From PVC group bacterium (lineage in GTDB: Bacteria > Verrucomicrobiota > Verrucomicrobiia > Chthoniobacterales > SZAS-18), in NCBI GenBank assembly GCA_903642295.1, contig CAHJWO010000002.1, positions 1-51,615 on the forward strand: a DNA stretch of 51,615 bases. Reading direction: 5' to 3'. The notes under the pieces were generated by a model. It searched no databases, was not told the DNA's origin, and saw nothing but the letters and a program-made list of their open reading frames with translations. A program made the position numbers and the translations under genes. Positions 6,894 through 36,260 of the stretch are shown here, in pieces; position 1 is the first letter of the stretch, and each line of letters begins with the position of its first letter.

Positions 6894-9110
6894 TTATCCG
6901 ACGTTTACCGGCATCAAAGTCATGGTGTCGTTGCCGAAGATGTCGATGACTTTCACCGCCACCGTGTACCGACCAGGCTTTGGGTAGCGATGCGAGACGC
7001 TTTTTAGCTCCAGCTTCCGATCCTGCCGGGTGCGGAAGCTCTGCCATTCGTTCTCGAAGATGTATGCGCCCGTCCAGCGTTCCTCGAACTCCAAGAACTC
7101 CTCGCCAGCCACCGCCACTCCGGGGAGGCCGCCTTCCACACCTAAATTCTTCGCCACTTTAATGATTTCCTTGCGGCTCTCATAGTCAAAATCGATGGCC
7201 CAGTAATCCACCCAATCTGTCCAGTGCCGCGTCAACGGCTCGCGGGTGACAACGTTCTCCTTGTTCTTGCTGATCTTGAGAAGCTGGCCACCCTCGCAAA
7301 CTACGTCGCTCTTGCCGGGTTTCATGGCGGCAATGGCAGCTTCCACCGCGCCCTGCGTGTAATATACGGAGAAATCCGTAAGTTCTATAATCACAGCCAG
7401 CCGGTCCTGTGCATCGTAGCGTGGCTGAACCTCAATGAAACTCACATCGTGGAAGGCAACTTGGCCACGGTCCACCGCGCGCCGATCAAAAACCTCGGGC
7501 GGGATGTACTTGGGTGAAAGGTCGATTCCCTTGCCGCGTGCCTCTTCCAACACGGCAGGGAAAAGGCCCATCTCGAACTCAAAAGCCAGGATGTCGACGC
7601 GCGATGCCTCACGTCGACGGCATTCAAGTATGACTTCTTCGACGAATAGGCGGCCCACCGGCAGATTGATAGGTCCAACGACAACCAGCCGCCCGCCAAG
7701 TTTACCGTGGAAGAATCCGTCCTGCGCAGTGGCCGATGCTCCGGTCCCCGCGCCCAACGGTTCAGCCTTGTAGGCCCGCAGGATCAGATCGCGGAATTCC
7801 TGTTCCTTGCGCGCAAGTGCATCGGCTTTCTTCTTGCCCGAAAGCCGCCCGCCCACGTTGAGATAAGCCTGCCGCTCATAACGACCCAGATTAAGCACTT
7901 CAAAGGCGCGGAAGGGTTTGCCGGACGACTTGAGTTCGCGTTGGACTTGGATGAGCCGCTTGCGCGTGGTGTGCACACCGAATTTGCCCAAATCGCTGGC
8001 AATCCACTTACGTCCCAATTTCTCTGCAACGGCAGCGGTCGTACCGCTACCTACAAAGAAATCCGCAATGAGATCACCTTCGTCACTGCTAGCTTTGATT
8101 ATACGTTCTAGTAACGCTTCAGGCTTTTGCGTAGGAAAGTCCAAACGCTCCGAACCATTTGGATTAACCATCGCAATGTCCCAGACGCTCCCACAAATCT
8201 TCTCGGTGCTATCTTGGTAAATGATGTTACCCGATGCATCCCGCGCAGAGACTCGCCTTTTAAGAGCCGAGTCCCATACGACTACGTTCTGTTTTCTCGC
8301 TTCCTTAACGGGCACGCTTTGGTGGTGAAAAACATGGCTGCCCTCTCGCTTTGCAAACATGAAAATCGAATTGTAATCGTGCGGAAAGTGGCGAATGAAA
8401 CTGAACAGAGGTTTGTTCGCGAAATACCAAATAACTTCTGTAAGGAAGTTGTCTTTCCCAAACACTTCGTCTAGAGCGGATCGAATAAGCCCGCTGGTTT
8501 TCCAATCGCAATGCACATAAACCGTTCCATCCTGGTGCATCAAATCCCGCATCAGAATTAATCGCTCATAGATCATGGCGATGAACGAATCCGCACCCCT
8601 GCCCCAAGTGTCACGGTATGCAATCTGTTCAAGCAGGTTCGGCTCTTTGTGAAAGGTTTCGCCGCCAATCTCGATGTCCATGCTGAAATCCGCACCCACA
8701 TCAAACGGCGGATCAATGTAGATGAGCTTCAGCCCGCCGGCGTCTTCAATCTGCCGCCGCAGGGCACCGCTCTTAAGCGAAGACAAGATCAGTTTGTTGT
8801 CTCCCCATATCAGCTTGTTCGTCCAGCCCTGCATTTGCCGACCACGAACATCCAGGGCCAATTCCTCGGAGTCCTTTTGTTCACGACGTGGTTCGTCGAT
8901 ATGTTCCAGCGTTTGAAAAGGCAGGACGACGTTGCACACGTCGCGCGTCTTCCCGTTCCAGACGAGTTCCACCTCCCGCTTATCCTCAAACAGAAGGAAG
9001 CGGTATCGCTCCGGCAGCGGCTTACCCGCTTGGATCAGCGCGATAATGTCGCGCTTCTCGGCATCAGAGAGTTCGTACTTTTCGGCGTCGGAAGAAGAAG
9101 GGCGGGGCAT
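6894..9110 (-). CDS. mod: Type III restriction-modification methyltransferase (Mod), N6-adenine type
   Basis: This 738-residue protein would methylate adenine in a short asymmetric site and give sequence specificity to the Res subunit. Motif IV (DPPF, residues 133-136) precedes the AdoMet motif I (FFVGSGTT, about 351-358), the beta-class order of type III Mod proteins. The region between and after them should contain the target recognition domain; the C-terminal 300 residues look like a specificity or interaction module. Its start is 3 bases from the PIN gene stop and shows no separate ribosome site, so it is probably translationally coupled. Res lies upstream in the same cluster, which differs from the common mod-res order. 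Confidence 0.92.
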
Positions 9111-21531: not shown

Positions 21532-21902
21532 GCAGCCATCCGTCAACGATTCAGGATCGTCGTGGAACCAAGACGACTTGTTTCCCACCAGTTTCGCTTT
21601 GGCGTTGCGGCAACGCCAATCGCACAAGCTCCTTCCCTTCGGGGCTGTGCGACCGCTCAACCGCTCCCGCGACATGGTGGGAACAAGTCTGTGATGTCGC
21701 TTAATCTTCTCTTGAAGGACGGCATTACTCCTGCCAACAAATCTTACGAGGCGACCAAATGGATGGGTTACCCAGACGAAGGTCAAGCTAACCGCATCGG
21801 TTCTTTTTGACGCCGGTTTCTTCCATGTTCCAAATAAAGCCGATGGCTTCGAGCCGTTTTTGCCTCTCAGACCGGATTTTCCTCATACGTCAAAGAGACG
21901 TT
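21532..21902. other. Intergenic, no gene supported
   Basis: This 370-base stretch follows the XRE gene. A short frame ending at 21810 has a plausible tail (KSYEATKWMGYPDEGQ), but nothing recognisable and no good start. It may be the remnant of a broken gene. Confidence 0.35.
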
Positions 21903-22432
21903 GGTCCGCTCCAGGATGGGGCGCAGCCGCTCGTCGTAGTAGGTCGGCTTCTCCCTGCCGGTGCGACGCGCGAGGTAGGGATGGACGAGTTTGCCCTGGA
22001 TGGGTCCAGGCCGGATGATGGCGACTTCGATGGCCACGTCGTAAAAGCAGCGCGGCTGCATCCGGGGCAAGGTCGCCATCTGAGCGCGGCTCTCGATCTG
22101 GAAGACTCTGATGGTGTCTGCCGCGCGCATGGCGTCGAAAGTGGCCGCGTCGTCCTTGGGGATCGTCGCCAAGTCCACGGGTTGGCCACGCGCTCGGCAG
22201 AGTTCGACCGTGTCTTGCAACACGGACATCATCCCCAGGCCCAACAGATCAACCTTGATGATCCCGAGGTCCGCGCAGTCCTCTTTGTCCCACTGGGCGA
22301 CCACCCTGCCCGGCATGGAAGCGTTCTCTAGCGGCATGATCGAATCAAGCTGACCCTTACAGATAATCATGCCCCCGGAGTGCTGGCCCAGGTGCCGGGG
22401 CAGGCCGTAGAGGCGCGGTTAAAGCGAAAGCA
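21903..22432 (-). pseudogene. Fragment of an error-prone DNA polymerase gene (dnaE2)
   Basis: About 530 bases align without a gap to positions 34299-34828 of the intact dnaE2 in this window. They encode the palm/finger part (VDLLGLGMMSVLQDT...FQIESRAQMATLPRMQPR...PGPIQGKLVHPYL). Differences are spread along the copy and mostly silent, with a few residue changes (for example GVFQIES to RVFQIES), so it is not a very recent copy. Both ends break off inside conserved domains. It is the remnant of a second mutagenesis cassette, or was captured by recombination. Confidence 0.88.
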
Positions 22433-22616: not shown

Positions 22617-24251
22617 CTACGGTGGCGAATGATTAGCGCACGGCCAAGTCAGGCCAAAACGTGTAAGATACTTTCGCAGTCGGTCAGCATCGTTGGCCGT
22701 TTTTCGCTTGCCACGAGTTACCGCGAACAGTCGCCTGCCTGCTTCGCTCAAACTTTTGCTGTCGCGGCAGACGCGGATGACGCAGGCGAGTTGTGCGCGG
22801 TCGAAGAGATCGAGGGCTGCCGCACCTTCGGCGTCCAGGGCGCTCATCAGCAGCGCGTTTTCATCGCCGTTCTCGCCGACCACTGTTCCCGGCGCAGTTT
22901 TCCAGCCGGTCCGTAGGCGTCCCAACTCTCCACTGAGGACTTCGTGAGTGATGCGCCCACCCCGCGCGAGCGTTGTCATGCGCGTCACCGCAGCATTCAG
23001 GTCGCGGAAGTTCGCGCTCCACTTTGCCTCGCCTGAACGAGCGAAATCCAGAAAGGCAGCCCGCACGTCTTTCGCCATGCCCACGCGCCGTCCAAGCAGA
23101 CGTGCGGCGTTTTCCAATTCGTGATCGAGGTTGGGCGCGATGTCCTCCGTGCGCTGTGCCAGTCCAGGCAGCACGAACGTCCACAGATTGATGCGCGCTA
23201 ACAGGTCTTCGCGGAACTCGCCCTTTGCCACCGCGCCCGAGAGGTCGGAGTTGGTTCCGGCAATTAGTTGGAAGTCGCTCTTCGCTTCTTGGTCCGCGCC
23301 GACCGGCAGGAAGCGTTTTTCCTCCAGGGCGCGCAGGAGCATCGCCTGTTCATCGGCCCCGAGTTCGCCGATCTCATCGAGGAAGAGCAGGCCACTGTCC
23401 GCCGAGCGTAATAGTCCTGGGCGGTCGCGTTGCGCCCCAGTGAAAGCTCCCCGGACATGTCCGAAGAGGGTGCTCGCCGCCGTGTCGCCACGCAGGGTGG
23501 CACAGTTGACCTCCACGAACTGCCCGGCGAGTTGGTGCCGCCCGCGCTTCAACTCGAACACCTTGCGCGCCAGGGAGGATTTGCCTGCTCCGGTCGGCCC
23601 CATGAAGAGCATCGGTTCGCGCGACGCTACAGCGACGTGCTCGATCTCCTCGATCATGCGGTTGAATGCGGCGTTGCGCGTGGCGATGCCATTCTTGAGG
23701 AACGTCAACGCCTCCTTCTGCTCCTGGGCAAACCGCGCCGCGATGCGGTCGTAGCGCGACAGGTCCAGGTCGATGATGGAATACTGTCCCGCTTCCGCGA
23801 GGTGCCGGGGTTGGCGTTCGCGGGGTGGCGAGGTCTGTATGAGCCGCCCGGGGAGGTGCCGCGATTCCGTGAGCAGGAACAGGCAAATTTGGGCGACATG
23901 CGTGCCGGTGGTGATGTGGACGAGGTACTCCTCGTTTTCCATGTCGAAAGAATACCCGCGCGCGAAATCTGCGAGCGCGCCATAAACCTCTTCAAAGTCC
24001 CAGGGGTCGCCGAACTCCACGACGTGTCGGCGCACCTCTGTTTCCGGCGACACACCGGTAATATCCGTCGTGATGGTTTCGGCAAGGCCGGTGTAGCGGC
24101 GGTCATGAAGCAGTTCGAGTCGCCCAACGAGCAGATCGTCGTGTTGGCAGAGTGAGACGGTGGGTCGCCAGCTTTTCCAACGGTGAGCGTGCTTGCCCGT
24201 GTCTAGTTGGGTGCCGAGTAAACCGAGGACAACGAGCTTCTTAGAGGACAT
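22617..24251 (-). CDS. rtcR: RtcR, sigma-54-dependent activator of the RNA repair operon
   Basis: This 544-residue bacterial enhancer-binding protein has an N-terminal CARF-type sensor domain (about 1-180, with the nucleotide-pocket-like HITTGTHVAQ). The AAA+ domain has Walker A GPTGAGKS (218-225), the sigma-54 contact loop GAFTGA (268-273) and Walker B LLFLDEIGE (288-296). The C-terminus is a helical DNA-binding region. In enteric bacteria RtcR senses RNA fragments from damage through its CARF domain and switches on rsr-Y RNA-rtcBA. Here it is divergent from exactly that set, 213 bases from rsr, with a sigma-54 promoter between them. ATG 24251. All key motifs are intact. Confidence 0.95.
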   Translation of the reverse strand: MSSKKLVVLGLLGTQLDTGKHAHRWKSWRPTVSLCQHDDLLVGRLELLHDRRYTGLAETITTDITGVSPETEVRRHVVEFGDPWDFEEVYGALADFARGYSFDMENEEYLVHITTGTHVAQICLFLLTESRHLPGRLIQTSPPRERQPRHLAEAGQYSIIDLDLSRYDRIAARFAQEQKEALTFLKNGIATRNAAFNRMIEEIEHVAVASREPMLFMGPTGAGKSSLARKVFELKRGRHQLAGQFVEVNCATLRGDTAASTLFGHVRGAFTGAQRDRPGLLRSADSGLLFLDEIGELGADEQAMLLRALEEKRFLPVGADQEAKSDFQLIAGTNSDLSGAVAKGEFREDLLARINLWTFVLPGLAQRTEDIAPNLDHELENAARLLGRRVGMAKDVRAAFLDFARSGEAKWSANFRDLNAAVTRMTTLARGGRITHEVLSGELGRLRTGWKTAPGTVVGENGDENALLMSALDAEGAAALDLFDRAQLACVIRVCRDSKSLSEAGRRLFAVTRGKRKTANDADRLRKYLTRFGLTWPCANHSPP

Positions 24252-24396: not shown

Positions 24397-24413
24397 TTGG
24401 CACGCGACAAGCA
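24397..24413 (+). promoter_or_regulatory. Sigma-54 (-24/-12) promoter of rsr-Y RNA-rtcBA
   Basis: TTGGCACG-CGACA-AGCA has the invariant GG-N10-GC spacing and a perfect -24 element (TTGGCACG); the -12 box has AAGC in place of TTGC. Initiation would fall near 24425, about 40 bases before the rsr start. The match fits activation by the divergent RtcR. Confidence 0.82.
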
Positions 24414-24464: not shown

Positions 24465-26054
24465 ATGAACGAACTCGATCCTCAAACCGCACTTCCCATG
24501 GCTAACAAGACTCTCTTCCAGACCGTTGCTGGGGCCATCCTGCCCAAGACCGATGTTCGCAACGAGGCCGGTGGTCCGGCCTTCGCCCTGCCGCCCCGGC
24601 ACGCCCTGGCCCAATACGCGGTCACCGGCTGCCTGAACTCAACGTTCTACGCCGGTGCCGAGGCTCAGCTTGAGCGCATCCTCGCTTTGGCGGGACAGGT
24701 GGACCCGGCATTCGTCGCCAAGACGGCGATCTACTGCCGCACACGGGGCTACATGAAAGACACGCCCGCGCTGCTCTGCGCCGCGCTGGCCACGCTCGAC
24801 GTGCCCATCTTGGAAACGGTTTTCGACCGTGTGATCGACGATGGCCGCACGCTGCGCAACTTCGTGCAGATCATCCGCAGCGGCGTCACGGGCCGCAAGT
24901 CGCTCGGGTCCGCCCCGCGCCGGTTGGTGCGCCGCTGGCTGGAACGCCGCGACGACGAGGGCGTGTTCCGCGCTTCGGTCGGGCAGTCGCCTTCGTTGGC
25001 GGACGTGGTCAAGATGGTGCATCCGCGCCCCGCTAACGCGCAGCGCGAGGCTTTGTACGGCTGGCTGATCGGACGCACGCACGACGGCGCGCTTCTGCCC
25101 CCGCTGGTGCGGCAGTTCGAGGCGTTCAAGAGCGGCCACATCAAGACCGTGCCCGACGTGCCGTTCCAAATGCTGACCGCGCTCGACCTCGACCGCGCCG
25201 GATGGCTGGCCGTCGCCGAAAACGCCTCGTGGCAGACCACGCGCATGAACCTGAACACCTTTGCTCGCCACGGCGTGTTCGACGACAAGGACCTGACCCG
25301 CCGCATCGCCTACCGCCTGCGCGACCCGCAGAAGGTGCGCCGTGCCCGGTGCTTTCCCTACCAACTCCTGACCGCGTTCCACGCCGCCGACCAGGCGGTG
25401 CCTGCTACCGTGAGGGACGCGCTCCAGGACGCGATGGAGATCGCCACGGAGAACGTCCCGGCCATCGACGGACAGGTGTTCGTCTGCCCGGACGTGTCGG
25501 GGTCCATGCAGTCGCCCGTGACCGGCCACCGCGCCGGGTCCACGACCAAGACGCGCTGCATCGACGTGGCTGCCTTGGTGGCCGCGAGCGTACTGCGCAA
25601 GAACCCGATGGCGGAAGTCATTGCGTTCAGTGACAACGTGGTGCCGTGTGACCCGAACACCCGCGACAGCGTGATGACCAACGCGCAAAAGCTCGCCTCG
25701 CTGCCCAGCGGCGGAACGAACTGCTCGGCTCCGCTGGCGCACCTGAACAAGGTGCGCGCGGTGGGCGATCTCGTGATCGTGGTGTCCGACAATATGTCGT
25801 GGGTCGATTCAAACGGTGGAGGCCGTAGCACGGCGACGATGGCCGAATGGTCGGCGTTCCGTGCCCGCAATCCCCGCGCCCGGCTGGTGTGCCTGGACAT
25901 CCAGCCATCCGCGACGACGCAGGCTGCGGAACGCGGGGACATTCTCAACGTCGGAGGTTTCTCCGACGCGGTGTTCGAGATCGTGTCGGCCTTCGCGCAG
26001 GGCAACTTGCGCCCGGGGCACTGGGTCGAGCAGATCGACCAGATCGAGTTGTAA
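24465..26054 (+). CDS. rsr: Ro60 homologue (Rsr), TROVE-domain RNA-binding protein
   Basis: This 529-residue protein has a HEAT-like TROVE ring (about 12-325; for example FALPPRHALAQYAVTGCLNSTFY and CRTRGYMKDTPALLCAALA). A von Willebrand A domain follows, with the metal site DVSGS (343-347) intact. Ro60 proteins bind misfolded RNA ends in the central hole and Y RNAs on the outer surface, and bacterial forms work with exonucleases such as PNPase. It is the first gene after the sigma-54 promoter and is followed by five Y RNA genes and rtcBA. A second ATG at 24498 (MANKTLFQT) matches the usual family N-terminus equally well; the first ATG is given here. Confidence 0.95.
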   Translation: MNELDPQTALPMANKTLFQTVAGAILPKTDVRNEAGGPAFALPPRHALAQYAVTGCLNSTFYAGAEAQLERILALAGQVDPAFVAKTAIYCRTRGYMKDTPALLCAALATLDVPILETVFDRVIDDGRTLRNFVQIIRSGVTGRKSLGSAPRRLVRRWLERRDDEGVFRASVGQSPSLADVVKMVHPRPANAQREALYGWLIGRTHDGALLPPLVRQFEAFKSGHIKTVPDVPFQMLTALDLDRAGWLAVAENASWQTTRMNLNTFARHGVFDDKDLTRRIAYRLRDPQKVRRARCFPYQLLTAFHAADQAVPATVRDALQDAMEIATENVPAIDGQVFVCPDVSGSMQSPVTGHRAGSTTKTRCIDVAALVAASVLRKNPMAEVIAFSDNVVPCDPNTRDSVMTNAQKLASLPSGGTNCSAPLAHLNKVRAVGDLVIVVSDNMSWVDSNGGGRSTATMAEWSAFRARNPRARLVCLDIQPSATTQAAERGDILNVGGFSDAVFEIVSAFAQGNLRPGHWVEQIDQIEL

Positions 26055-26056
26055 CC

Positions 26057-26124
26057 GATTTCGCCGAATGCCGGTGGGACTACATTTTCCATGTGAGTGT
26101 CTCACCAGAAACTTGTCGGCGATC
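26057..26124 (+). ncRNA. Y RNA copy 1, short form without tRNA-like module
   Basis: It begins two bases after the rsr stop. The outer helix pairs GAT-CGCCGA (two-base bulge) with TCGGCGATC. The conserved motif CGAATGCC...GACTACAT lies on the 5' side and CTTGTCGGCG on the 3' side, as in the other four copies. An inner helix GGTGGGA/TCTCACC is capped by a small hairpin (ACAT...ATGT). At about 68 nt it has only the Ro60-binding part, like a minimal Y RNA. Confidence 0.78.
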
Positions 26125-26147
26125 AACCCTTAACCACACAAAGATTT

Positions 26148-26295
26148 GAGCGTGCCGAATGCAGGTACGGACTACATGGTAGAGCGTCCGCGCGGGTGAA
26201 AGCTCGCGCGAAAGGTCCCGGGTTCATCTCCCGGTCCCGCCTCAAAACGGGATAGCTCAGTAAAAAATGTCCTGCCGCCGGTTGTCGGCACGCTC
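26148..26295 (+). ncRNA. Y RNA copy 2, tRNA-like module opened in the D loop, with an anticodon-like arm
   Basis: The outer helix is 11 perfect base pairs (GAGCGTGCCGA / TCGGCACGCTC). The inner helix pairs GGTA-GGAC (one C bulged) with GTCCTGCC. Inside, in order: GGTA plus GAGC (3' half of the D arm, 26178-26185); an 8-bp hairpin at 26189-26210 where the anticodon arm would be; a T arm at 26218-26234 (CCGGG-TTCATCT-CCCGG); acceptor strands TCCCG and CGGGA joined by an 8-base loop; TA; then GCTC-AGT, the 5' half of the D arm. So this is a circularly permuted tRNA cut in the D loop. The T loop has T in place of the conserved A58. Confidence 0.88.
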
Positions 26296-26317
26296 GCAAA
26301 ATCCATGCAGAAAATTT

Positions 26318-26429
26318 GAGCGTGCCGAATGCAGGCACGGACTACATTGGCAGAGCGCGGGTTCGACTCCCGGCCCCGTCGTAAAAAGCGGGGTAGCTCA
26401 GTGTCCTGCCGCCGGTTGTCGGCACGCTC
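26318..26429 (+). ncRNA. Y RNA copy 3, D-loop-opened module without anticodon arm
   Basis: It has the same 11-bp outer helix and nearly the same inner helix as copy 2 (GGCA-GGAC with GTCCTGCC), so the two are recent relatives. The module runs GGCA-GAGC (D arm 3' half, 26349-26356), directly followed by a T arm with a canonical TTCGACT loop (26358-26372). CCCCG/CGGGG acceptor strands closed by a 10-base loop follow, then TA and GCTC-AGT (D arm 5' half, 26396-26402). The anticodon arm of copy 2 is absent, giving 112 nt. Confidence 0.88.
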
Positions 26430-26445
26430 TCAAACCTGATCGGCT

Positions 26446-26576
26446 TTCGTGACGAATGCCGCGTGGAACTACATTACTTCGCCGGTCCCGGGTTCGAGTC
26501 CCGGTCCAGCCGCAAGGTTGGATAGCTCAGTCGGTAGAGCATCGAAAATGTTTCACCAATTCCTTGTCGTCATGAA
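26446..26576 (+). ncRNA. Y RNA copy 4, module opened at the anticodon side, GCAA-capped acceptor stem
   Basis: The 10-bp outer helix pairs TTCGTGACGA with TCGTCATGAA. The inner helix is GTGGAAC/GTTTCAC. The module has a T arm at 26488-26504 with TTCGAGT loop, then a full 7-bp acceptor stem (TCCAGCC/GGTTGGA, one G-U) capped by a GCAA tetraloop at 26512-26515. TA follows at the U8-A9 position, then a complete D arm GCTC-AGTCGGTA-GAGC (26525-26540). Flanking TTCG/CGAA may be a remnant of an anticodon stem. The order T arm, acceptor, D arm is a tRNA circularly permuted at the anticodon. Confidence 0.9.
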
Positions 26577-26609
26577 CTGGCCGGTCTCCAACACTTTCAC
26601 CTTCCCAAT

Positions 26610-26746
26610 TTTGCGGCGAATGCCGATGTGACTACACCCTAAACACGGACGCGGTCGCGGGTTCGAGTCCCGCCGGTTCCTCTTAAACGGAGCCGTAGCT
26701 CAGTGGTAGAGCACGTAAAACGTCACCTCAAATTTGTCGCTGCAAA
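26610..26746 (+). ncRNA. Y RNA copy 5, module opened at the anticodon side
   Basis: The 10-bp outer helix pairs TTTGCGGCGA with TCGCTGCAAA (one G-U). The inner helix pairs GATGTGAC with GTCACCTC. The T arm at 26657-26673 is GCGGG-TTCGAGT-CCCGC. A 7-bp acceptor stem (CGGTTCC/GGAGCCG) is closed by the 8-base loop TCTTAAAC. TA follows, then a full D arm GCTC-AGTGGTA-GAGC (26698-26712). The RNA ends 32 bases before the rtcB start codon, so processing of the operon transcript here would separate it from the rtcB message. Confidence 0.9.
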
Positions 26747-26778
26747 CTTCTTTTCTCCGCTCTCAAACTACTACCGCC

Positions 26779-28290
26779 ATGATCTCTGAATTTACTGCTC
26801 CAATCATCACTTCGACCGGCGAAGCCACGGGCTTCCTGCCCATGCGTGGCTCGCAAGGCAAGCCGATCACCATCATCGGCACCGACCCTATTCGCCAAGG
26901 TTTCGACACGCGCTGCATTGAACAAGCCCTCAACTCTCGCGGCGCGCCGGGCGTGACGGACCTGATCCTCAACCCGGACGCCCACGCCGGATACGGCGCG
27001 CCGGTCGGGTGCGTGCTGGTTTCACCCACCCACATCTATCCTGGCCCGGTAGGAGTGGACATCAAATGCTCCATGAGCCTGTTGGCTCTCGATCTGACTG
27101 CGGATACTGTGGCGGAGCGCACCGTCCGCCGTGCCTTGATCGAAGCGATCTGCGAACGAACGCCCACCGGGGCCGGGCGTGGCCAACGGTCCGCCCGGAA
27201 GTCACGCTGCGTTACGCCCGAACTGGGTCGTCGCGTGGCGACCGAAGGAGCATCCGCCGAAGTGTGCGAAGCCTTGGGTATCCCACCGGAGTGGGCGACC
27301 CGTTGCGAGAACTCGGCGCACGTCGGTTATGACGGCACGGCGGATGCGTTGCGCACCCGGCTGGATCGTCTCATCAACAGCGGGGCTTTTCCCAAATTCG
27401 CCGATAAGATGACACAACTTGGTTCCTACGGCGGCGGCAACCACTTCGGCGAGTGTGAGGCGGTCCAACTGTCATCCGACGAGCGTCTGCGCGGCGTGGC
27501 GGAAAGTTTTGGCCTGCGGGATGGCGGCCTCGCCTTCCTATCGCACTGCGGTTCGCGCGGGTTCGGGTTCAACTTGGCGATGGGCCAATTCCGGGCGTTG
27601 CAGGAGTTCTTTCTGCGCTGGGGATTGCCGTTGCCCGGCCAGGACAAGGAACTCGTGTACGCGCCGCTCGGTACGCCCGAAGCGGACGCCTACCTGGACG
27701 ACATGGCCCTTGGTGCGAACTTCGCCACGGTCAATCACCTGCTCATCAACGCCCTGGTGCTGGAAGCGTTTCAGGAGGTCATTCCGGGTACGACTGGCAG
27801 CCTCGTGTACTTTATCAGCCACAACATCGCCCAGCGCGAGATCGTCGATAACCGCCCGACCTGGGTGCATCGCAAGGGAGCCACCCGTGCGTTTCCCTCC
27901 GGGCACCACGCGCTGGCCGGGACACCCTTCGCCGCGACGGGTCACCCTATCCTGCTGCCGGGAAACCCGGCGGCAGGCAGCAGCGTCATGGTTGCGGAGC
28001 CGGGGGCAGCCTTGAGTTGCTACTCGGTCAACCATGGTGCGGGTCGGGCCAAGGGTCGCAAGGCCGCCATCCGCGAACTCGACCAGAAGACCGTGGACCA
28101 ACAGTTCACCGACCTCGACATCCTGACCAACTGCCGCTTCTATCCCAAGGATGAAGCTCCAGCAGCGTACAAGGATTTCGACGAGGTGCTGCGCAGCGTG
28201 AAGTCCGCTGGGCTGGCCTCGGAGGTCGCCCGTTTGCGCGCCCGCTTCGTCATCAAGGACTCGGACGAAAGTCTGCGGGGTGCGGCATGA
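26779..28290 (+). CDS. rtcB: RtcB, 3'-phosphate RNA ligase
   Basis: This protein of about 503 residues seals RNA 2',3'-cyclic phosphate or 3'-phosphate ends to 5'-OH ends using GTP and Mn2+. The metal and guanylate sites are present: DAHAGYG (67-73), GVDIKC with the metal Cys (92-97), YGGGNHFGE, SHCGSRG, ISHNIAQ, HRKGATRAF, and the nucleophile His419 in HGAGR. It is longer than the 408-residue E. coli enzyme, as in some other lineages. ATG 26779 is used because upstream in-frame codons fall inside Y RNA copy 5. It overlaps rtcA by ATGA, so the two are translationally coupled. Confidence 0.96.
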   Translation: MISEFTAPIITSTGEATGFLPMRGSQGKPITIIGTDPIRQGFDTRCIEQALNSRGAPGVTDLILNPDAHAGYGAPVGCVLVSPTHIYPGPVGVDIKCSMSLLALDLTADTVAERTVRRALIEAICERTPTGAGRGQRSARKSRCVTPELGRRVATEGASAEVCEALGIPPEWATRCENSAHVGYDGTADALRTRLDRLINSGAFPKFADKMTQLGSYGGGNHFGECEAVQLSSDERLRGVAESFGLRDGGLAFLSHCGSRGFGFNLAMGQFRALQEFFLRWGLPLPGQDKELVYAPLGTPEADAYLDDMALGANFATVNHLLINALVLEAFQEVIPGTTGSLVYFISHNIAQREIVDNRPTWVHRKGATRAFPSGHHALAGTPFAATGHPILLPGNPAAGSSVMVAEPGAALSCYSVNHGAGRAKGRKAAIRELDQKTVDQQFTDLDILTNCRFYPKDEAPAAYKDFDEVLRSVKSAGLASEVARLRARFVIKDSDESLRGAA

Positions 28291-29345
28291 AAGCTCGTGT
28301 GAAAACGACAACGTCTACCCCTGTCGTCATCGACGGCGCGGCAGGCGAAGGCGGCGGGCAAATCCTACGCACTTCGCTCGCGTTATCGCTCGTGACAGGT
28401 CGCGCGTTTCGGATGGTGAACATTCGTGCAAAGCGTGCCAAACCGGGGTTGTTGAGGCAACACCTGACGGCGGTGCGTGCCGCCGTGGAAATCAGCGATG
28501 CGGCGTGCGACGGGGCAGAAATTGGCTCGGGAGAGTTGGTGTTCCGTCCCGAGGCCGTTCGCGCCGGTGACTACCATTTTGCCATCGGTACGGCAGGCAG
28601 TACGACGCTCGTGTTGCAGACGATCCTGCCCGGGCTGGCGTTGGCGAGCGGGCCATCGCAGATCGTGCTCGAAGGAGGGACGCACAACCCGTTGGCACCG
28701 CCGTTCGACTACCTCGCCCACACGTTCTTGCCGATCTTCAACCGCTTCGGACCAACGGTCGAGGCGACGCTGGTACGCGCAGGTTTTTACCCGGCGGGCG
28801 GTGGTCAGATCGAGGTGAAAATTACGCCGACAGACCGACTTCGTGCCGTGGAACTGCTCACGCGGGGTACAGATAGTGGGCGGCGCGTCGTGGCTCACGT
28901 CGCGGGCGTACCGGCGAACGCGGCAGAGCGCGCTTTCGAGCAGGCTGACAAGCGTCTGCGCTGGGGGCGCGGGGTGTGTGAGATCATCGAGCATCCCACC
29001 GAGAGGGGACAAGGCTTCGTTCTCGTCGGTGAGGTTGCCTCGGAGGGCCATACCGAAGTGTTCACCAGTTTCGGTGAACGCGGTCTACGCGCGGAGGCTG
29101 TCGCAGACCGGATGGTAGAGCAGGTCCGTTCTTACCTCGCCGGTGGGCTACCCGCAGGCGAACACATGGCCGATCAATTCCTGTTGCCGATGGCTCTGTC
29201 CGGCGGCGGTGCGTTCCGAACTGCTGGCTTGTCGCCGCACGCGCGGACGAACATGGATGTCATCCAAGCATTTTTGTCGGTTCGTTTCCAGGTAACGGAA
29301 CTTAAAAACGGCGGTGTAGAGGTTCGCGTTCCGTGTGGGAATTAA
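28287..29345 (+). CDS. rtcA: RtcA, RNA 3'-terminal phosphate cyclase
   Basis: This 352-residue enzyme uses ATP to convert RNA 3'-phosphates into 2',3'-cyclic phosphates. Diagnostic segments are EGGGQILRTSLALS near the start, PAGGGQIEVKI in the middle, and GEHMADQFLLPMAL, where His293 matches the adenylated histidine. Full length and intact. It is the last gene of the sigma-54 operon, starting inside the rtcB stop (ATGA). Together RtcA and RtcB prepare and rejoin RNA ends, for example of cleaved tRNAs. Confidence 0.95.
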   Translation: MKARVKTTTSTPVVIDGAAGEGGGQILRTSLALSLVTGRAFRMVNIRAKRAKPGLLRQHLTAVRAAVEISDAACDGAEIGSGELVFRPEAVRAGDYHFAIGTAGSTTLVLQTILPGLALASGPSQIVLEGGTHNPLAPPFDYLAHTFLPIFNRFGPTVEATLVRAGFYPAGGGQIEVKITPTDRLRAVELLTRGTDSGRRVVAHVAGVPANAAERAFEQADKRLRWGRGVCEIIEHPTERGQGFVLVGEVASEGHTEVFTSFGERGLRAEAVADRMVEQVRSYLAGGLPAGEHMADQFLLPMALSGGGAFRTAGLSPHARTNMDVIQAFLSVRFQVTELKNGGVEVRVPCGN

Positions 29346-29367: not shown

Positions 29368-29403
29368 TTGACAGGCGTCTTCTGTAAGCTATCGTTAGCT
29401 TAC
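29368..29403 (+). promoter_or_regulatory. Promoter and palindromic operator of the XRE-ImmA operon
   Basis: TTGACA (29368-29373) and TATCGT (29390-29395) with 16-base spacing form a sigma-70-type promoter. A perfect 8-4-8 palindrome, GTAAGCTA and TAGCTTAC around TCGT (29384-29403), covers the -10 box and ends at the base before the ATG. Transcription would begin at or next to the start codon, so the message is probably leaderless, and the XRE protein likely represses itself here. Confidence 0.68.
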
Positions 29404-29769
29404 ATGGATGATGCTTTGACTGCTACGATGGGACAACGTCTCCGCGAATTGCGAGAGCGTGCTGGGCTTTCACTCCGCGAGGTTGCGAAATTCGCGGAAA
29501 TTTCCGCACCGTTCCTGTCGGATGTCGAACTCGGACGACGTTTTCCAACCAACGAAAAGCTGGCTCTGATTGCGCAGAAGTTGCGGGCCTCCGCCGACGA
29601 TTTGAAGAAGCACGACCACCGTTCGGCTCTGATCGACTTGAAGCGTATGGCGGACGGTAGTCCTAGCCTCGGGGCGGCAGTGCAAGCCTTGGTGAATCAG
29701 GTCCAGTCCGGTGACCTTACGCCCGATGAACTCGCCGCAAAACTCCGCCGCGCCAGCAACGCCGAATAA
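29404..29769 (+). CDS. XRE-family helix-turn-helix regulator (ImmR-like)
   Basis: This 121-residue protein has an HTH (LRELRERAGLSLREVAKFAEISAPFLSDVELGRRFPTNEKLALIAQKL) and a helical tail. It is the first gene of a four-gene operon with a GNAT-like protein, an ImmA-type metallopeptidase and a beta-family protein. XRE repressors paired with ImmA/IrrE peptidases are relieved by proteolysis, so the peptidase two genes downstream probably cuts this repressor. ATG 29404 directly follows its predicted operator. Confidence 0.88.
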   Translation: MDDALTATMGQRLRELRERAGLSLREVAKFAEISAPFLSDVELGRRFPTNEKLALIAQKLRASADDLKKHDHRSALIDLKRMADGSPSLGAAVQALVNQVQSGDLTPDELAAKLRRASNAE

Positions 29770-29799
29770 ACGATCTGGCTGAATCTTGTCTTTTCGCCG

Positions 29800-30462
29800 A
29801 TGAACAATCCCGCCATCAGGACGGTCGGTACGTTGCAGGAGATTGAACAAGGCGAACTCGTACACGTCAGCAAGAACAAAGTTCCCTACAAGATCATTCA
29901 CGGTTGGAGCCTGAAATCCTCCTTGGAGTGTGACGCCGTGTGGAAGCAGGACTGGCTTGCACTCTTTAAGCAGATTCAGCAGGCACAGCCCGACGAGACG
30001 AAGCAGAACGAAATTCTCGCGTCGATCTCTACCGAGGACATCCACTGGGATTGGTTCACGAAGGCAGTCGAATCGAGTACCGACGAATACGAGTGGTTCC
30101 ACCTCTACGCCGATGGTAAGCCGCAAGCTGCTTGTCTAATCTACCACCCGGAGGCGAGTGCTCTGGAACCGGGCGACATTTTCTATGTGAAATTCGTCGC
30201 GGTGGCTCCGTGGAATCGGACGTGTGAAATCCGTCCACGCGAATTTAGCCGCTTGGGCGAGATCATCCTGCGGGCCGCGCAACGGTTTGCCGTGAAAGAA
30301 CTCGGCCTCCGGCCAGGATTCTGTCTCCACTCACTCCCGAAGGCGGAAGGTTTTTACACAAAACTCAAAATGTTGAAGGTGGCAGGCAAGGAGGACTCGC
30401 AGTCGCTTGCGTATTATGAGCTTCCGCAGGTCCATGCGGTCGAACTGATGGAGGCCGTCTAA
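29800..30462 (+). CDS. GNAT-like acetyltransferase domain protein
   Basis: In this 220-residue protein, residues 100-200 read like a GNAT fold: IFYVKFVAVAPWNR, then a long helix LGEIILRAAQRFAVKELGL, then LHSLPKAEGFYTKLKML, the typical strand plus FY-x-K near the acceptor site. The usual acetyl-CoA pyrophosphate loop (Q/RxxGxG/A) is not obvious, so activity is uncertain. In the operon it sits between the XRE repressor and the ImmA peptidase, one base before the latter, so they are co-translated. It may modify a target of the module or be a sensor. Confidence 0.7.
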   Translation: MNNPAIRTVGTLQEIEQGELVHVSKNKVPYKIIHGWSLKSSLECDAVWKQDWLALFKQIQQAQPDETKQNEILASISTEDIHWDWFTKAVESSTDEYEWFHLYADGKPQAACLIYHPEASALEPGDIFYVKFVAVAPWNRTCEIRPREFSRLGEIILRAAQRFAVKELGLRPGFCLHSLPKAEGFYTKLKMLKVAGKEDSQSLAYYELPQVHAVELMEAV

Positions 30463-30463
30463 T

Positions 30464-31342
30464 ATGAGCACCCCCGACGACGGATGGGCCGATTTCACAC
30501 ACACGCCGCAGACCTCTAAGGTATCCGCCCACGAGTTGTTTGAACGCTACCGGGAGTTTCAGCGTTTTACCACCGCCCTTTCAAAGAGGGATTTGGTTGC
30601 GCGCGGCTGGTTGAAAGACGCGAACGACGATTCGCCTCTCGCGGCGATTTTCTTTGATCTCCCTCTCTCCAAACAGCCGACGCTCTTTCGTAAATCTGCC
30701 AAGGCCGATGAAAACCTGCTGGCGGTCTGGCAGGCCCGCGCCCGGCTGCAAGCGCAACACTTTTATCTCGGTGGGGAATGCGCATCCTTTACCGGCCTGA
30801 CCAGGGAGTACCTGCGGAATCTCGCTTTATTGAGCGTGAACCCGCAAGTCGTTCGTGATCTCCCCGATTTGCTCGCGAAATCGGGTGTCATCCTCGTCTA
30901 TGTTTACGCGCTCCCCGGAATGAGCGCAGACGGCGCGGTATTCCATTTGAGCACCGGCCATCCTGTCATTGCGATGAGCCTCCGCTTCCCGCGCCTCGAT
31001 TACTTTTGGTTCACGCTTCTGCACGAGCTTGCGCACCTCGTCCTCCACAACGATCAACTTGTGGCTCCCTTGTTCTTCGATGTGGAGGCTGGTGAGGAGC
31101 AAGATCGGATCGAGAAGGCTGCCAATCGTCTCGCGAAAGACTCCATCGTTGACCGCGAGTCCTGGCGCAATTGTCCGCCCAAATACGATCCTCGCGACCA
31201 AGCCGTGCGCACCTATGCTGCTGCGCAGGGCGTCCACCCAAGCTTGATCGCTGGCCTCCTCCGCAAGGAGTTCGGCAACTACACGCGCTACAACTCGATT
31301 ATCAACGAGCACGACATCCGCACCATCATCATCAAGCCATGA
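30464..31342 (+). CDS. ImmA/IrrE-family metallopeptidase
   Basis: This 292-residue protein has the zinc motif HELAH in FTLLHELAHLVLHND (about residue 187), with the following acidic helix EEQDRIEKAANRLAKDSI that supplies the third ligand region. The N-terminal 100 residues form a separate helical domain. ImmA peptidases inactivate partner XRE repressors after a signal, which here would release the operon starting at 29404. It overlaps the next gene by ATGA. Confidence 0.88.
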   Translation: MSTPDDGWADFTHTPQTSKVSAHELFERYREFQRFTTALSKRDLVARGWLKDANDDSPLAAIFFDLPLSKQPTLFRKSAKADENLLAVWQARARLQAQHFYLGGECASFTGLTREYLRNLALLSVNPQVVRDLPDLLAKSGVILVYVYALPGMSADGAVFHLSTGHPVIAMSLRFPRLDYFWFTLLHELAHLVLHNDQLVAPLFFDVEAGEEQDRIEKAANRLAKDSIVDRESWRNCPPKYDPRDQAVRTYAAAQGVHPSLIAGLLRKEFGNYTRYNSIINEHDIRTIIIKP

Positions 31343-32406
31343 TTCGATACGTTCCTTTCCTCAAGGCGAAGCGCGGCGAACTCAACGCAGTCGGCGAATT
31401 GAGTCCCGAAATCAAGCAAGCCATTTGCCCCCTGTTTGATTTTCCGCGCAAGAAGGAGGAGTACGACGTAGGGACCTACACTGCGACTACCCACAACATC
31501 GTGACGGGCTTGAAGAAACACTGGGGTGCCGATGCTGAGTTCTACTTCGATGACCTCGACATCAGCCAAACACTCACTCTGGAGGGAGAGCATCGATATG
31601 CCTACGGGCTCAAGGCCCTTGGCGGACTGCAAGTCATTCCCGTCGTTGCCCTTGACCGAATCAGCCATAACGCCGCCGTCGCCCGCCTCAAACGAGAGGG
31701 CGAGATTGCCTCCGGTATCGTGGCCTTCCGCGCAGAACCGGGCGACTTCGAGGATTTCGACAAGGACCGAATTGACTACGATTTGGGGAACGCTTTTGTA
31801 GAATTCGAGGCAATTGACTTGATCCTCGATTGCCGTCTCTGCACTGGTCTTAATGTCTCTCAGGCCGCGCAGCAGATCGCCACGTTCGCGAAAAAGTTTT
31901 GTAACGCTTACGACAACGTCCGCCGTGTGATCGTCACAGGCTCTTCCATTCCTGCTTCTCTAGGTGATATCGTAAAGTCGACCACCACTAAAGTTCTTGA
32001 GCGGTGCGAACTCGCCATCCTTGCCAAAGCACGCGACTTGACCGACATCGACTTGGTATGTGGCGACTATGCAACTGTCAGCCCGTTCTACTCAGATGCA
32101 GAATTTGAGCCGGAACTCTTTCCAAAGGTGACGAGTCCACGGTTAATCTACTCGTTTGATCATTCCCATTATATCAGCCGGGGACGTTCCTTGGCAACAG
32201 GTGGCCCAGGTCAATACCTGGGTCTCACCGGAGCCCTCTGTCGGCAAGGATTTTTCCGCTTGAGGTATTCGACTGGCGACAACTATTTCTATGAAAAAAG
32301 CCGGGGAATCGGCAGATATGCCACCAACGGCACGGTGGTGAAGCCGTCCGTGGTGGCTCACATCACCTACATGGTCACGGACATGGTCCTGGACGCAAAA
32401 TCCTGA
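31339..32406 (+). CDS. Beta-family protein (T4 beta / sce7725-like)
   Basis: This 355-residue protein has the typical opening MIRYVPFLKAKRGELNAVGELSPEIKQAICPLFDFPR and end segment (FDHSHYISRGRS...YLTG) of the T4 beta-protein family, also called sce7725-type. Such proteins are found in phages and in bacterial defence-type operons; the molecular role is unknown. Members are often next to an sce7726-type gene, and one lies here, convergent and overlapping by 40 bases. It is the last gene of the XRE-GNAT-ImmA operon and starts within the peptidase stop. Confidence 0.82.
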   Translation: MIRYVPFLKAKRGELNAVGELSPEIKQAICPLFDFPRKKEEYDVGTYTATTHNIVTGLKKHWGADAEFYFDDLDISQTLTLEGEHRYAYGLKALGGLQVIPVVALDRISHNAAVARLKREGEIASGIVAFRAEPGDFEDFDKDRIDYDLGNAFVEFEAIDLILDCRLCTGLNVSQAAQQIATFAKKFCNAYDNVRRVIVTGSSIPASLGDIVKSTTTKVLERCELAILAKARDLTDIDLVCGDYATVSPFYSDAEFEPELFPKVTSPRLIYSFDHSHYISRGRSLATGGPGQYLGLTGALCRQGFFRLRYSTGDNYFYEKSRGIGRYATNGTVVKPSVVAHITYMVTDMVLDAKS

Positions 32407-33143: not shown

Positions 33144-36100
33144 TCAGCAAAAATCGTGCGACTCGGCGTGCGCCTTGCCAGTGTGACACAGACCCTCGAT
33201 CTGCTCGGCCTTGATGTGGATGGTGCCCTCGGAAATCTGCACCGGGCCTTCGATCAGCAGGTAGGCTTCCTGGGTGATGGTCAGGCGCAATTTCTCGAAC
33301 AGGTCGGGTGCCACGATGGCGTTGGCGATCCCGGTCTCGTCTTCGAGGCTGATAAACACGAAGCCCTTGGCCGTGCCCGGACGCTGGCGACAGATCACGT
33401 TACCAGCGATGCGCACCGCCTGCCCGTCCTCGGCGTCGAGCAGATCGGTTGCGCTCCAGACACCCTCCGGCAGATGGGGCCGCAGCAGGGCCATCGCGTG
33501 CGGCCCCGTGGTCAGGTTCATGCCGTCGTAGTCGGCCTGTAACCGTTCGTCCGCGTCCATCGGAACCAAGGGCGAAGAGGTAGCATCCAGAGCAACGACT
33601 TGGTCGAAGAGGTCTGGTTCCTCCGCGCGGGGCGTTTCCACCGACCAGAGCGCGTCGCGCCGGTGACCTCCCAACGCATTCAACGCGCCCAGGGCTGCCA
33701 GTGTGCGCAGTTCGTCCCGGTCCAAGCTCACCCGAGTTAAGAAATCCTGCCGCGACCGGAACGGTTGGTTCCCGCGCACTTCGAGCAGAATCTCCGCGTG
33801 CTGCCGATTCAAGCCGTTGACCACGCAGAACCCCAGCCGTACCGCGTCATCCGAGGCTTCGATGGTGCAGGCCCACTCCGAGCGCACGACGCACACGGGC
33901 CGCGTCTTGATGCCGTGTCGGCGCGCGTCCTTGACCAGAGTCGCCGAGGAGTAGAATCCCATCGGTTGGTTGTTCAACAGACTCGCAAAGAACTCAGGAC
34001 CCCGGTGAACCTTCAACCACGCGCTGCCATACGCCAGGAGGGCAAAACTGAGCGCGTGCGACTCGGGGAAACCGTACAGGGCGAAGCCCTTGGTGGATTG
34101 GATGATGGCATCGACCGTCTCGGGCCGTATGCCCCGCTCCGCCATCCGCTCGCGCAGCTTAGCTTCCACCCGCGCCATGCGGTCGGGGCTGCGGTGAAAG
34201 CTCATGGCCCGGCGCAATTCCTCGGCCTCATCGCCGGAGAAGTCCGCCATGACCATGGCGATCTTGAGCACCTGCTCCTGGAAAAGCGGCACGCCAAGGG
34301 TCCGCTCCAGGATGGGGCGTAGCCGCTCGTCGTAGTACATGGGTTTCTCCTTGCCTGTGCGCCGTGCAAGGTAGGGATGGACGAGCTTTCCCTGGATCGG
34401 CCCCGGACGGATGATGGCGACCTCGATGGCTACATCGTAGAAGCAGCGCGGCTGCATCCGGGGCAAAGTGGCCATCTGCGCGCGGCTCTCGATTTGGAAG
34501 ACCCCGATGGTGTCGGCCCGGCACATGGCGTCGAAGGTCGCGGTGTCGTCCTTCGGGATCGTCGCCAAGTCCACCGGCTTCCCGCGTTCCCTGCACAGTT
34601 CGACCGTGTCCTGCAACACCGACATCATCCCGAGACCTAGCAGATCAACCTTGATGATCCCGAGGTCCGCGCAGTCCTCCTTGTCCCACTGGGCGACCAC
34701 CCTGCCCGGCATGGAAGCGTTCTCCAACGGCACGATGGAGTCGAGTTGGCCCTCGCAGATGATCATGCCCCCAGAGTGCTGGCCCAGGTGCCGGGGCAAG
34801 CCGTAGAGACGTGGGTAAAGCGAGAGCAAAGCTCCGGTGCGGGGATGACCGTTGGACAACCCCGCCTGGGCCACCTGTTCCTCCAGGTCCAGGGTGTGCG
34901 GAAAGTCTCCGCCCGCGAACAGGCGGGAGAATCGGTCCATGACCTCGCCCGGCAGGTTGAGCGCCTTGCCGATCTCGCGCATGGCGCTCTTGCCCCGGTA
35001 GGTAATCACATTCGCCGTCATAGCGGCCCCGTGGTGACCGTAGCGACGGTACACCTCCTGGATGACCTGTTCGCGCCGTTCGCCGGAGGGCAGGTCCAGG
35101 TCGATGTCCGGCCAGTCCTTGCGTCCTTCGGAGAGAAACCGCTCGAAGAGCAGGTTGCCGCCTACGGGATCAACGGCAGTGATGCCCAGGCTGTAGCACA
35201 CCGCACTGTTCGCCGCACTGCCCCGACCCTGGACCAGGATGCGGCTTTCCCGGGCGTAGTTGACCAAGTCCCAGACGATCAGGAAGTAGCCCGCGAACCC
35301 CAGCTTGTTGATAAGGTCGAGTTCGTGTCGAAGTTGCAGGAGCACCTTGCGGGTCAGCTTTCCGTAGCGTTCCCTGGCACCAGCAAGGGTCACGCGACGC
35401 AGACACTCGCCCATGTTCTCGCCCTCGGGCGTGCGGTAGCGGGGGAACTCGTAGCCCAGGTTGTCGAGGGAGAACTCCAACCGTTCTGCCAGACGCAACG
35501 TGTTCGTAATGGCATCTGGCCACTGGGCAAAGAGCCGCTGCATTTGCCGAGCACTTTTCAGGCAGCGCGCCCCGTTGAGACTGAGCAGTTGGCCCGCCAC
35601 GTCTAGAGGCGTGTGGAAGCGGGCGCAGGTCAGTACGTCGAGTACCTGCTGGCCTTCCGGCTCCGCGTAGAGCACCCCGTTAGTTGCCAGAATCGGCAAG
35701 CCAAATTCCCGGGCCAGCGCGACCGATGCTGCGAGGATGCGGTCTTCGATGCGCCAGAGGTGCCGCTGTAGCTCTACGAACAGATGACGGTGACCGAAGA
35801 TGCCCCGCAGGCAACGCAAGACTTCGCGACCGCCGTCCAGGTCGTCAAAGAGCAGGGCACGGAAAAGCGGGCCTTCCTCGTCGCCGGTCAGGCAGACCAA
35901 GCCCTCGGCGAACTCAGCCAATTCATCCCAGCGTACCGGGTGCTCGGCCTTGGTGCCACGGAGCTGGGCGCGCGTGATTAACCGGCACAGATTTCGGTAA
36001 CCCGTCCGGTTCTCGACTAGGACCGGCAGCACGCTATCGTCTTCCATCGTCAACTCGGCTCCGACGATGGGACGGATGCCATGCTCGCGAGCGGCGGCGA

Positions 36101-36260
36101 AGAATCGGGGCGCGCCGTAGACACCGTCCCGGTCCAGTACGGCCAGAGCAGGCAGGCCCAACTCCGCAGCACGCCAGGCAAGGTCTTCGGGCGCGGACGC
36201 CCCGCGCAGAAACGAAAACGCGCTGCGGGCGTGAAGTTCGACATATTCCATGAGCGGCAT
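33144..36260 (-). CDS. dnaE2: DnaE2, error-prone DNA polymerase III alpha subunit
   Basis: This 1038-residue C-family polymerase has a PHP domain (YVELHARSAFSFLRGASAPEDL at the N-terminus), palm motifs (RGSAANSAVCYSLGITAVDPV, WPDIDLDLPSGERREQV), the finger region and a C-terminal OB fold (AVRIAGNVICRQRPGTAKGFVFISLEDETG). DnaE2 (ImuC) copies damaged DNA with ImuB. It lies 9 bases after imuB in a lexA-controlled operon. Two ATGs are possible: 36260, or 36251 preceded at 9 bases by GAGAAGG. Residues 470-650 are duplicated as the fragment at 21903-22432. Confidence 0.96.
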   Translation of the reverse strand: MPLMEYVELHARSAFSFLRGASAPEDLAWRAAELGLPALAVLDRDGVYGAPRFFAAAREHGIRPIVGAELTMEDDSVLPVLVENRTGYRNLCRLITRAQLRGTKAEHPVRWDELAEFAEGLVCLTGDEEGPLFRALLFDDLDGGREVLRCLRGIFGHRHLFVELQRHLWRIEDRILAASVALAREFGLPILATNGVLYAEPEGQQVLDVLTCARFHTPLDVAGQLLSLNGARCLKSARQMQRLFAQWPDAITNTLRLAERLEFSLDNLGYEFPRYRTPEGENMGECLRRVTLAGARERYGKLTRKVLLQLRHELDLINKLGFAGYFLIVWDLVNYARESRILVQGRGSAANSAVCYSLGITAVDPVGGNLLFERFLSEGRKDWPDIDLDLPSGERREQVIQEVYRRYGHHGAAMTANVITYRGKSAMREIGKALNLPGEVMDRFSRLFAGGDFPHTLDLEEQVAQAGLSNGHPRTGALLSLYPRLYGLPRHLGQHSGGMIICEGQLDSIVPLENASMPGRVVAQWDKEDCADLGIIKVDLLGLGMMSVLQDTVELCRERGKPVDLATIPKDDTATFDAMCRADTIGVFQIESRAQMATLPRMQPRCFYDVAIEVAIIRPGPIQGKLVHPYLARRTGKEKPMYYDERLRPILERTLGVPLFQEQVLKIAMVMADFSGDEAEELRRAMSFHRSPDRMARVEAKLRERMAERGIRPETVDAIIQSTKGFALYGFPESHALSFALLAYGSAWLKVHRGPEFFASLLNNQPMGFYSSATLVKDARRHGIKTRPVCVVRSEWACTIEASDDAVRLGFCVVNGLNRQHAEILLEVRGNQPFRSRQDFLTRVSLDRDELRTLAALGALNALGGHRRDALWSVETPRAEEPDLFDQVVALDATSSPLVPMDADERLQADYDGMNLTTGPHAMALLRPHLPEGVWSATDLLDAEDGQAVRIAGNVICRQRPGTAKGFVFISLEDETGIANAIVAPDLFEKLRLTITQEAYLLIEGPVQISEGTIHIKAEQIEGLCHTGKAHAESHDFC

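Follow-up and report, generated by a model that had tools for sequence, protein, structure and literature searches.

In this work, the interval between the Ro60 gene (rsr) and rtcBA of a Verrucomicrobiota genome was found to hold, as judged from its sequence, a genuine cluster of five bacterial Y RNA genes, and four of the five inserts mimic tRNA, by predicted fold and motif order, with the tRNA circularly permuted in two different ways. Copies 4 and 5 have the canonical YrlA arrangement, and the modules of copies 2 and 3 appear to be tRNAs opened in the D loop. We provisionally regard this permuted form as a variant not described so far that could already be known; no description of a D-loop-permuted YrlA was found in the literature searched, outside which the main primary Y RNA papers and reviews lie.

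Operon context

A profile search of the open reading frames (ORFs) in the window (the whole stretch of DNA analysed, 51,615 nt) gave the operon order rtcR–rsr–Y–rtcB–rtcA. The divergent rtcR (22617..24251, minus strand) encodes a sigma54 activator with a CARF-like sensor domain (PF06956, E 3.6e-85; PF00158, E 2e-47). On the plus strand, rsr (24465..26054) encodes a Ro60 orthologue (PF25045, E 9.4e-19; PF05731; Rsr of PDB 2nvo, E 2.5e-21), the single Rsr detected in the genome, whose true start is likely the ATG at 24498 (MANKTLF), where alignment A1 begins (MANK). It is followed on the same strand by the RNA ligase gene rtcB (26779..28290; PF01139, E 5.4e-94) and the RNA 3'-terminal phosphate cyclase gene rtcA (28287..29345; PF01137, E 2.2e-79). 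A candidate sigma54-type promoter, TGGCACGCGACAAGCA, lies upstream of rsr (24398..24413, plus strand; GG-N10-GC match). On its own this site is not significant within the window; across loci, sigma54-type matches within 250 nt upstream of rsr occurred in 61 of 77 cases versus 18 of 77 shuffled sequences. The gene content is that of an RtcR-type RNA repair operon (divergent rtcR, sigma54 site, rtcB and rtcA), and the regulation is predicted. The genome also contains a PNPase gene. The closest same-genus relative is an uncultured Verrucomicrobia MAG, with an Rsr identity of 91%.

Two further observations concern the neighbouring genes. The short ORF at 21867-22370 (minus strand) duplicates a stretch of a 1038-aa DnaE-type polymerase ORF (33144-36260, minus strand), and thus appears to be a partial copy of the polymerase gene near rtcR. 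The region 3' of rtcA (29368-32406) holds an HTH regulator, an unknown ORF, an IrrE/M78 peptidase and a gene of the Beta_protein family, which may form a stress or defence module of their own.

The five Y RNA copies

The original prediction of five tandem Y RNA genes filling the whole space between the rsr stop (26054) and the rtcB ATG (26779) was borne out, with motifs, helices and gene matches in agreement. The shared motifs were located in all five copies, CGAATGC starting at 26065, 26156, 26326, 26453 and 26617, and TTGTCG at 26113, 26282, 26416, 26564 and 26734. Every copy has the Y motifs GAAUGC/ACUACA and UUGUC in its stem, and these are kept in the sister species. The copies are delimited by their closing helices, all on the plus strand, at 26061..26122 (copy 1), 26147..26296 (copy 2), 26318..26429 (copy 3), 26446..26576 (copy 4) and 26607..26749 (copy 5), with 16-30 nt between neighbours. 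A closing helix of 9-11 bp had been expected throughout; each copy is indeed closed by a helix, but its length is 10-12 bp in four copies and just 7 bp in copy 1. The folding z-scores against shuffles were -3.1 (-3.05), -4.5, -3.8, -2.4 and -2.2 for copies 1-5. Furthermore, a motif-plus-helix scan of 137 rsr loci (80 bacterial and 57 viral, obtained from Rsr relatives) gave 325 candidates in the orientation of rsr, as against 12 on the opposite strand. Intrinsic terminators between the copies were not found above chance, so production as one transcript with processing seems the likelier arrangement for the five Y RNAs.

The suggested covariance search with the Rfam models of YrlA (RF02553, cut-off 69 bits) and YrlB (RF02565, cut-off 97 bits) supported part of the array. 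Copies 4 and 5 matched RF02553 significantly yet under the curated cut-off (E ~1e-13; 63.3 bits, E 5.8e-14, and 62.5 bits, E 9.8e-14, respectively), copy 3 matched it weakly (32 bits), and copies 1 and 2 had no match to this model. Copy 1 resembles YrlB in being short, without a tRNA module and with the same motifs, but it scored only 18.7 bits (E 0.79) with RF02565, far under the cut-off, and is therefore called merely YrlB-like. The locus as a whole is similar to the Salmonella rsr-yrlBA-rtcBA operon in its genes, in the Y stem and in the YrlA mimic of copies 4 and 5, but it has five Y RNAs where Salmonella has two.

tRNA-like heads in two permutations

The inserts differ across the five copies, as had been proposed, and so do the types of head. 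The canonical YrlA mimic, present in copies 4 and 5 only, has the order T arm, capped acceptor, D arm, with the Y stem replacing the anticodon stem. In the alignment to RF02553 (plus strand), the T arm, acceptor hairpin and D arm fall at 26488-26504, 26505-26522 and 26525-26540 in copy 4, and at 26657-26673, 26674-26695 and 26698-26712 in copy 5. The D arm is split in copies 2 and 3: its 3' half (GGUAGAGC or GGCAGAGC) comes ahead of the T arm, and its 5' half (UAGCUCAG) comes after the acceptor hairpin. Because these halves flank the module, the D stem closes it, and the tRNA is opened in the D loop and not at the anticodon stem as in YrlA. In both copies, the D stem connects to the Y stem; each of the four mimics has its acceptor end capped by a loop.

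The module of copy 2 (26178..26258, plus strand; sequence, fold and alignment table) comprises GG (26178-26179), the D stem (26182-26185/26255-26258), a hairpin with a GAAA loop (26189-26210), the T arm (26218-26234), an acceptor-like hairpin (26235-26252) and TA (26253-26254). Its unconstrained fold (z -4.48) recovered every arm, including a 9-bp GAAA-capped hairpin in the anticodon-arm position, a hairpin retained here unlike in YrlA. The module of copy 3 (26349..26399, plus strand; sequence and fold) comprises GG (26349-26350), the D stem (26353-26356/26396-26399), the T arm (26358-26372) and an acceptor-like hairpin (26374-26393), without the anticodon-arm hairpin. Since copy 3 has no such hairpin and the T loop of copy 2 (UUCAUCU) departs from the usual form, some permuted modules may be decaying. 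A by-eye comparison with the 33 tRNAs listed from this genome gave no clear parent, and the idea that the modules are copies of particular host tRNAs was dropped.

Occurrence of the permuted form

The permuted form was first spotted in other loci by pattern, and a covariance model (R1) was then built from 11 sequences; copy 3 was omitted from training because the first MAFFT alignment had misplaced it. R1 scored 115 bits for copy 2, a training member, and 72 bits for copy 3, one of the ten members outside training that it recovered with 59-87 bits and E ~1e-14 or lower. Altogether, the permuted form was found in 20 loci, namely 19 of the 76 cellular loci with Y RNAs and the phage contig L124. 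By record title, most records being metagenome bins, the cellular loci fall into about six phyla: eight in Verrucomicrobiota, five in Acidobacteriota, three in Planctomycetota and one each in Bacteroidota, Gemmatimonadota and Pseudomonadota. At six test loci, the Rfam YrlA model returned nothing for the permuted members of four and 36.8 and 32.6 bits in the other two, against up to 85.6 bits for the other Y RNAs there; a class spread over about six phyla escapes this model. With R1 at E 1e-12 and stricter filters, this genome was the sole match among 388 genomes of the phylum, a sample mostly without known permuted members, whose outcome says little beyond patchiness.

The pairing within the permuted form was well kept. 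In the 24 aligned R1 matches, an alignment fitted to the model in which three rows are not clear members, 91.2% of cells were paired versus 66.1% in shuffled ones, 33 of 35 pairs had two-sided change, and sliding the partners lowered the paired cells to 37-46%. Independently of this alignment, the D stems vary yet pair, as GAGC/GCUC, GAGU/ACUC (L060), GCGC/GCGC (L098) or GGGC/GCCC (L072). L098 comes from a cultured bacterium, Scleromatobacter humisilvae BS-T2-15, and its permuted Y RNA lies at 7096-7227. The tRNA core letters U8 A9, A14 G15, G18 G19 and T-loop UUC are kept in most members. The anticodon-position stem had 74.8% pairing in A4, with a one-column misregister between groups, and its reading by eye is stronger. 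The loops in this position, some read by eye, are shorter than seven nucleotides in 18 of 20 members (mostly 3-6 nt), those of L026 and L124 having seven. A third, minimal mimic, with GG near the 5' side, a T arm and a capped acceptor and without a D stem, was seen 3' of rsr in L032, L034, L039, L084, L096 and others.

These data bear on the possibility that the tRNA-like heads are interchangeable, serving to stabilise the Y RNA or add bulk, with the permutation point a result of neutral drift after captures of tRNA sequence. Such an explanation would fit the head types differing from locus to locus, and copy 3, which has no hairpin in the anticodon position and is missing from the sister species, points to fast turnover of heads. 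On the other hand, in about six phyla the permuted form has preserved the letters of the tRNA core as well as stems that covary, and it is accompanied by the canonical form (called by sequence pattern) in 17 of 20 loci, which looks more like two maintained types than drift. We consider neutral heads unlikely.

Copy number and the sister species

A census was made of the 71 bacterial rsr loci for which 1.5 kb or more of downstream sequence was available; the bacterial loci are the best 80 matches to this Rsr, so the counts describe this Rsr type only. No Y RNA was counted in 5 loci, one in 7, two in 15, three in 17, four in 19, five in 4 and six in 4, by a scan that overlooks some copies (e.g., the first of L025) and in which a few distant candidates may be false. 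The number per locus was thus most often 3–4 (range 0–6, n=71), and the earlier view of a five-member set as an unusual expansion had to be given up, five copies as a rarity being ruled out.

Y RNAs, some with tRNA-like heads, were also seen on the viral rsr contigs L103, L118, L124, L130, L150 and L153, and none were seen by the motif-plus-helix scan at many other viral rsr loci. Four rsr loci titled Acidobacteriota (L036, L043, L047 and L062) have 27-30 tRNA genes within the 5 kb upstream of rsr, a near-full tRNA set adjoining an RNA repair system, and in some of these arrays Y RNAs are interspersed among the tRNA genes. Dense tRNA gene arrays likewise occur at the Acidobacteriota-titled loci L038, L040, L049, L067 and L075.

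The array of the sister species (G002, locus L023) has four members in all, which correspond to copies 1, 2, 4 and 5. Aligning this homologous rsr–rtcB interval confirmed that the helices are conserved and the outer helices remain paired: all 130 predicted helix pairs are intact, 11 of them despite a change on one side, and 34 of 231 unpaired positions differ. Copy 3 is absent there. As its stems are shared with copy 2, it probably arose by recent tandem duplication and is a relative of copy 2; the alternative is its loss in the sister species.

Proposed role of the Y RNAs

We consider it probable, by analogy with known systems, that this RtcR/sigma54 operon provides an Rsr ring, five Y RNAs and RtcB/RtcA, with the Y RNAs serving as stress-induced adaptors and decoys on Rsr. 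Gene content, RNA architecture and conservation are the observed part of this explanation. In Salmonella, cleaved tRNA induces the RNA repair operon (PMC7790460); RtcR would similarly sense tRNA cleavage under stress and induce the whole set. The two-part stem common to the Y RNAs (closing helix, AAUGC/UUG internal loop and upper helix ending in ACUACA) would by analogy hold Rsr, while the heads differ. With one Rsr in the genome, differing inserts and conserved helices, several adaptors for one Ro60 would be a fair reading.

Tethering of Rsr to PNPase by a Y RNA is known from Deinococcus (PMC4726728), and both this tethering and the tRNA-like nature of YrlA, on which the tRNA-modifying enzymes DusA and TruB act as on a substrate, have been covered (PMC8394870). 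The present genome shares the Rsr orthologue (2nvo) and a PNPase gene with this Rsr-PNPase assembly (RYPER); it differs in its rtcBA linkage and several Y RNAs, and the tethering shown in Deinococcus is a possibility here. We infer that the Y RNAs are expressed and bind Rsr, and that, while tRNAs are repaired and degraded, tRNA-binding factors and/or PNPase would be recruited or kept occupied by their heads. The canonical head would expose the acceptor and the elbow. In the permuted copies 2 and 3, the Y stem would enter the tRNA mimic at the elbow side, exposing the acceptor and the anticodon side, and in copy 2 the 4-nt-capped hairpin would occupy the anticodon-arm position. The Y RNAs on Rsr would then be adaptors and decoys presenting opposite faces of a tRNA core that is unchargeable, uncuttable in an anticodon loop and mostly anticodon-less; by the geometry of the two heads, these faces may be shown to different partners.

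It is rather improbable that the copies act mainly as decoys, keeping anticodon nucleases occupied as tRNA look-alikes that cannot be cut, and do not serve Rsr as adaptors. For YrlA of Salmonella, with its tRNA-like domain, competitive inhibition of the anticodon nuclease has been put forward as a possibility, and the RecA-dependent nuclease leaves this RNA uncut (PMC7790460); caps stand in place of the anticodon loop here. However, the canonical copies have no anticodon arm at all, and the common Y stem and the operon linkage to rsr indicate a role with Rsr. A reading of copies 2 and 3 as genuine circularly permuted tRNA genes whose products mature into working tRNAs, as in red algae, can practically be dismissed: they share with permuted tRNA genes and permuted tmRNA a tRNA fold in rotated order, with a junction in the D loop of a type known among permuted tRNA genes (PMC3978253), but the ends created by the rotation continue into a Y RNA stem, the 7-nt anticodon loop and the free CCA-bearing acceptor of a working tRNA are absent, which marks a mimic and not a tRNA, copy 2 has a GAAA cap for an anticodon loop and copy 3 no anticodon arm, and most relatives have 3-6 nt loops, all inside Y RNA stems.

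Returning to adaptors and decoys on Rsr, we tentatively hypothesize, as a possible if somewhat doubtful generalisation, that two circular-permutation isomers of a tRNA, opened at the anticodon stem and in the D loop, respectively, and each borne on the same Ro60-binding stem, are encoded next to each other in many bacteria. While RNA is being repaired, Ro60 would thereby offer different partners opposite sides of a tRNA that cannot be cut. A second mimic, in which the Y stem is attached elsewhere on the same fold and the anticodon loop is mostly trimmed to 3-6 nt, makes the reason for tRNA mimicry by a Ro60 partner directly testable. If the partners differ between the two forms, the tRNA face that matters would be revealed.
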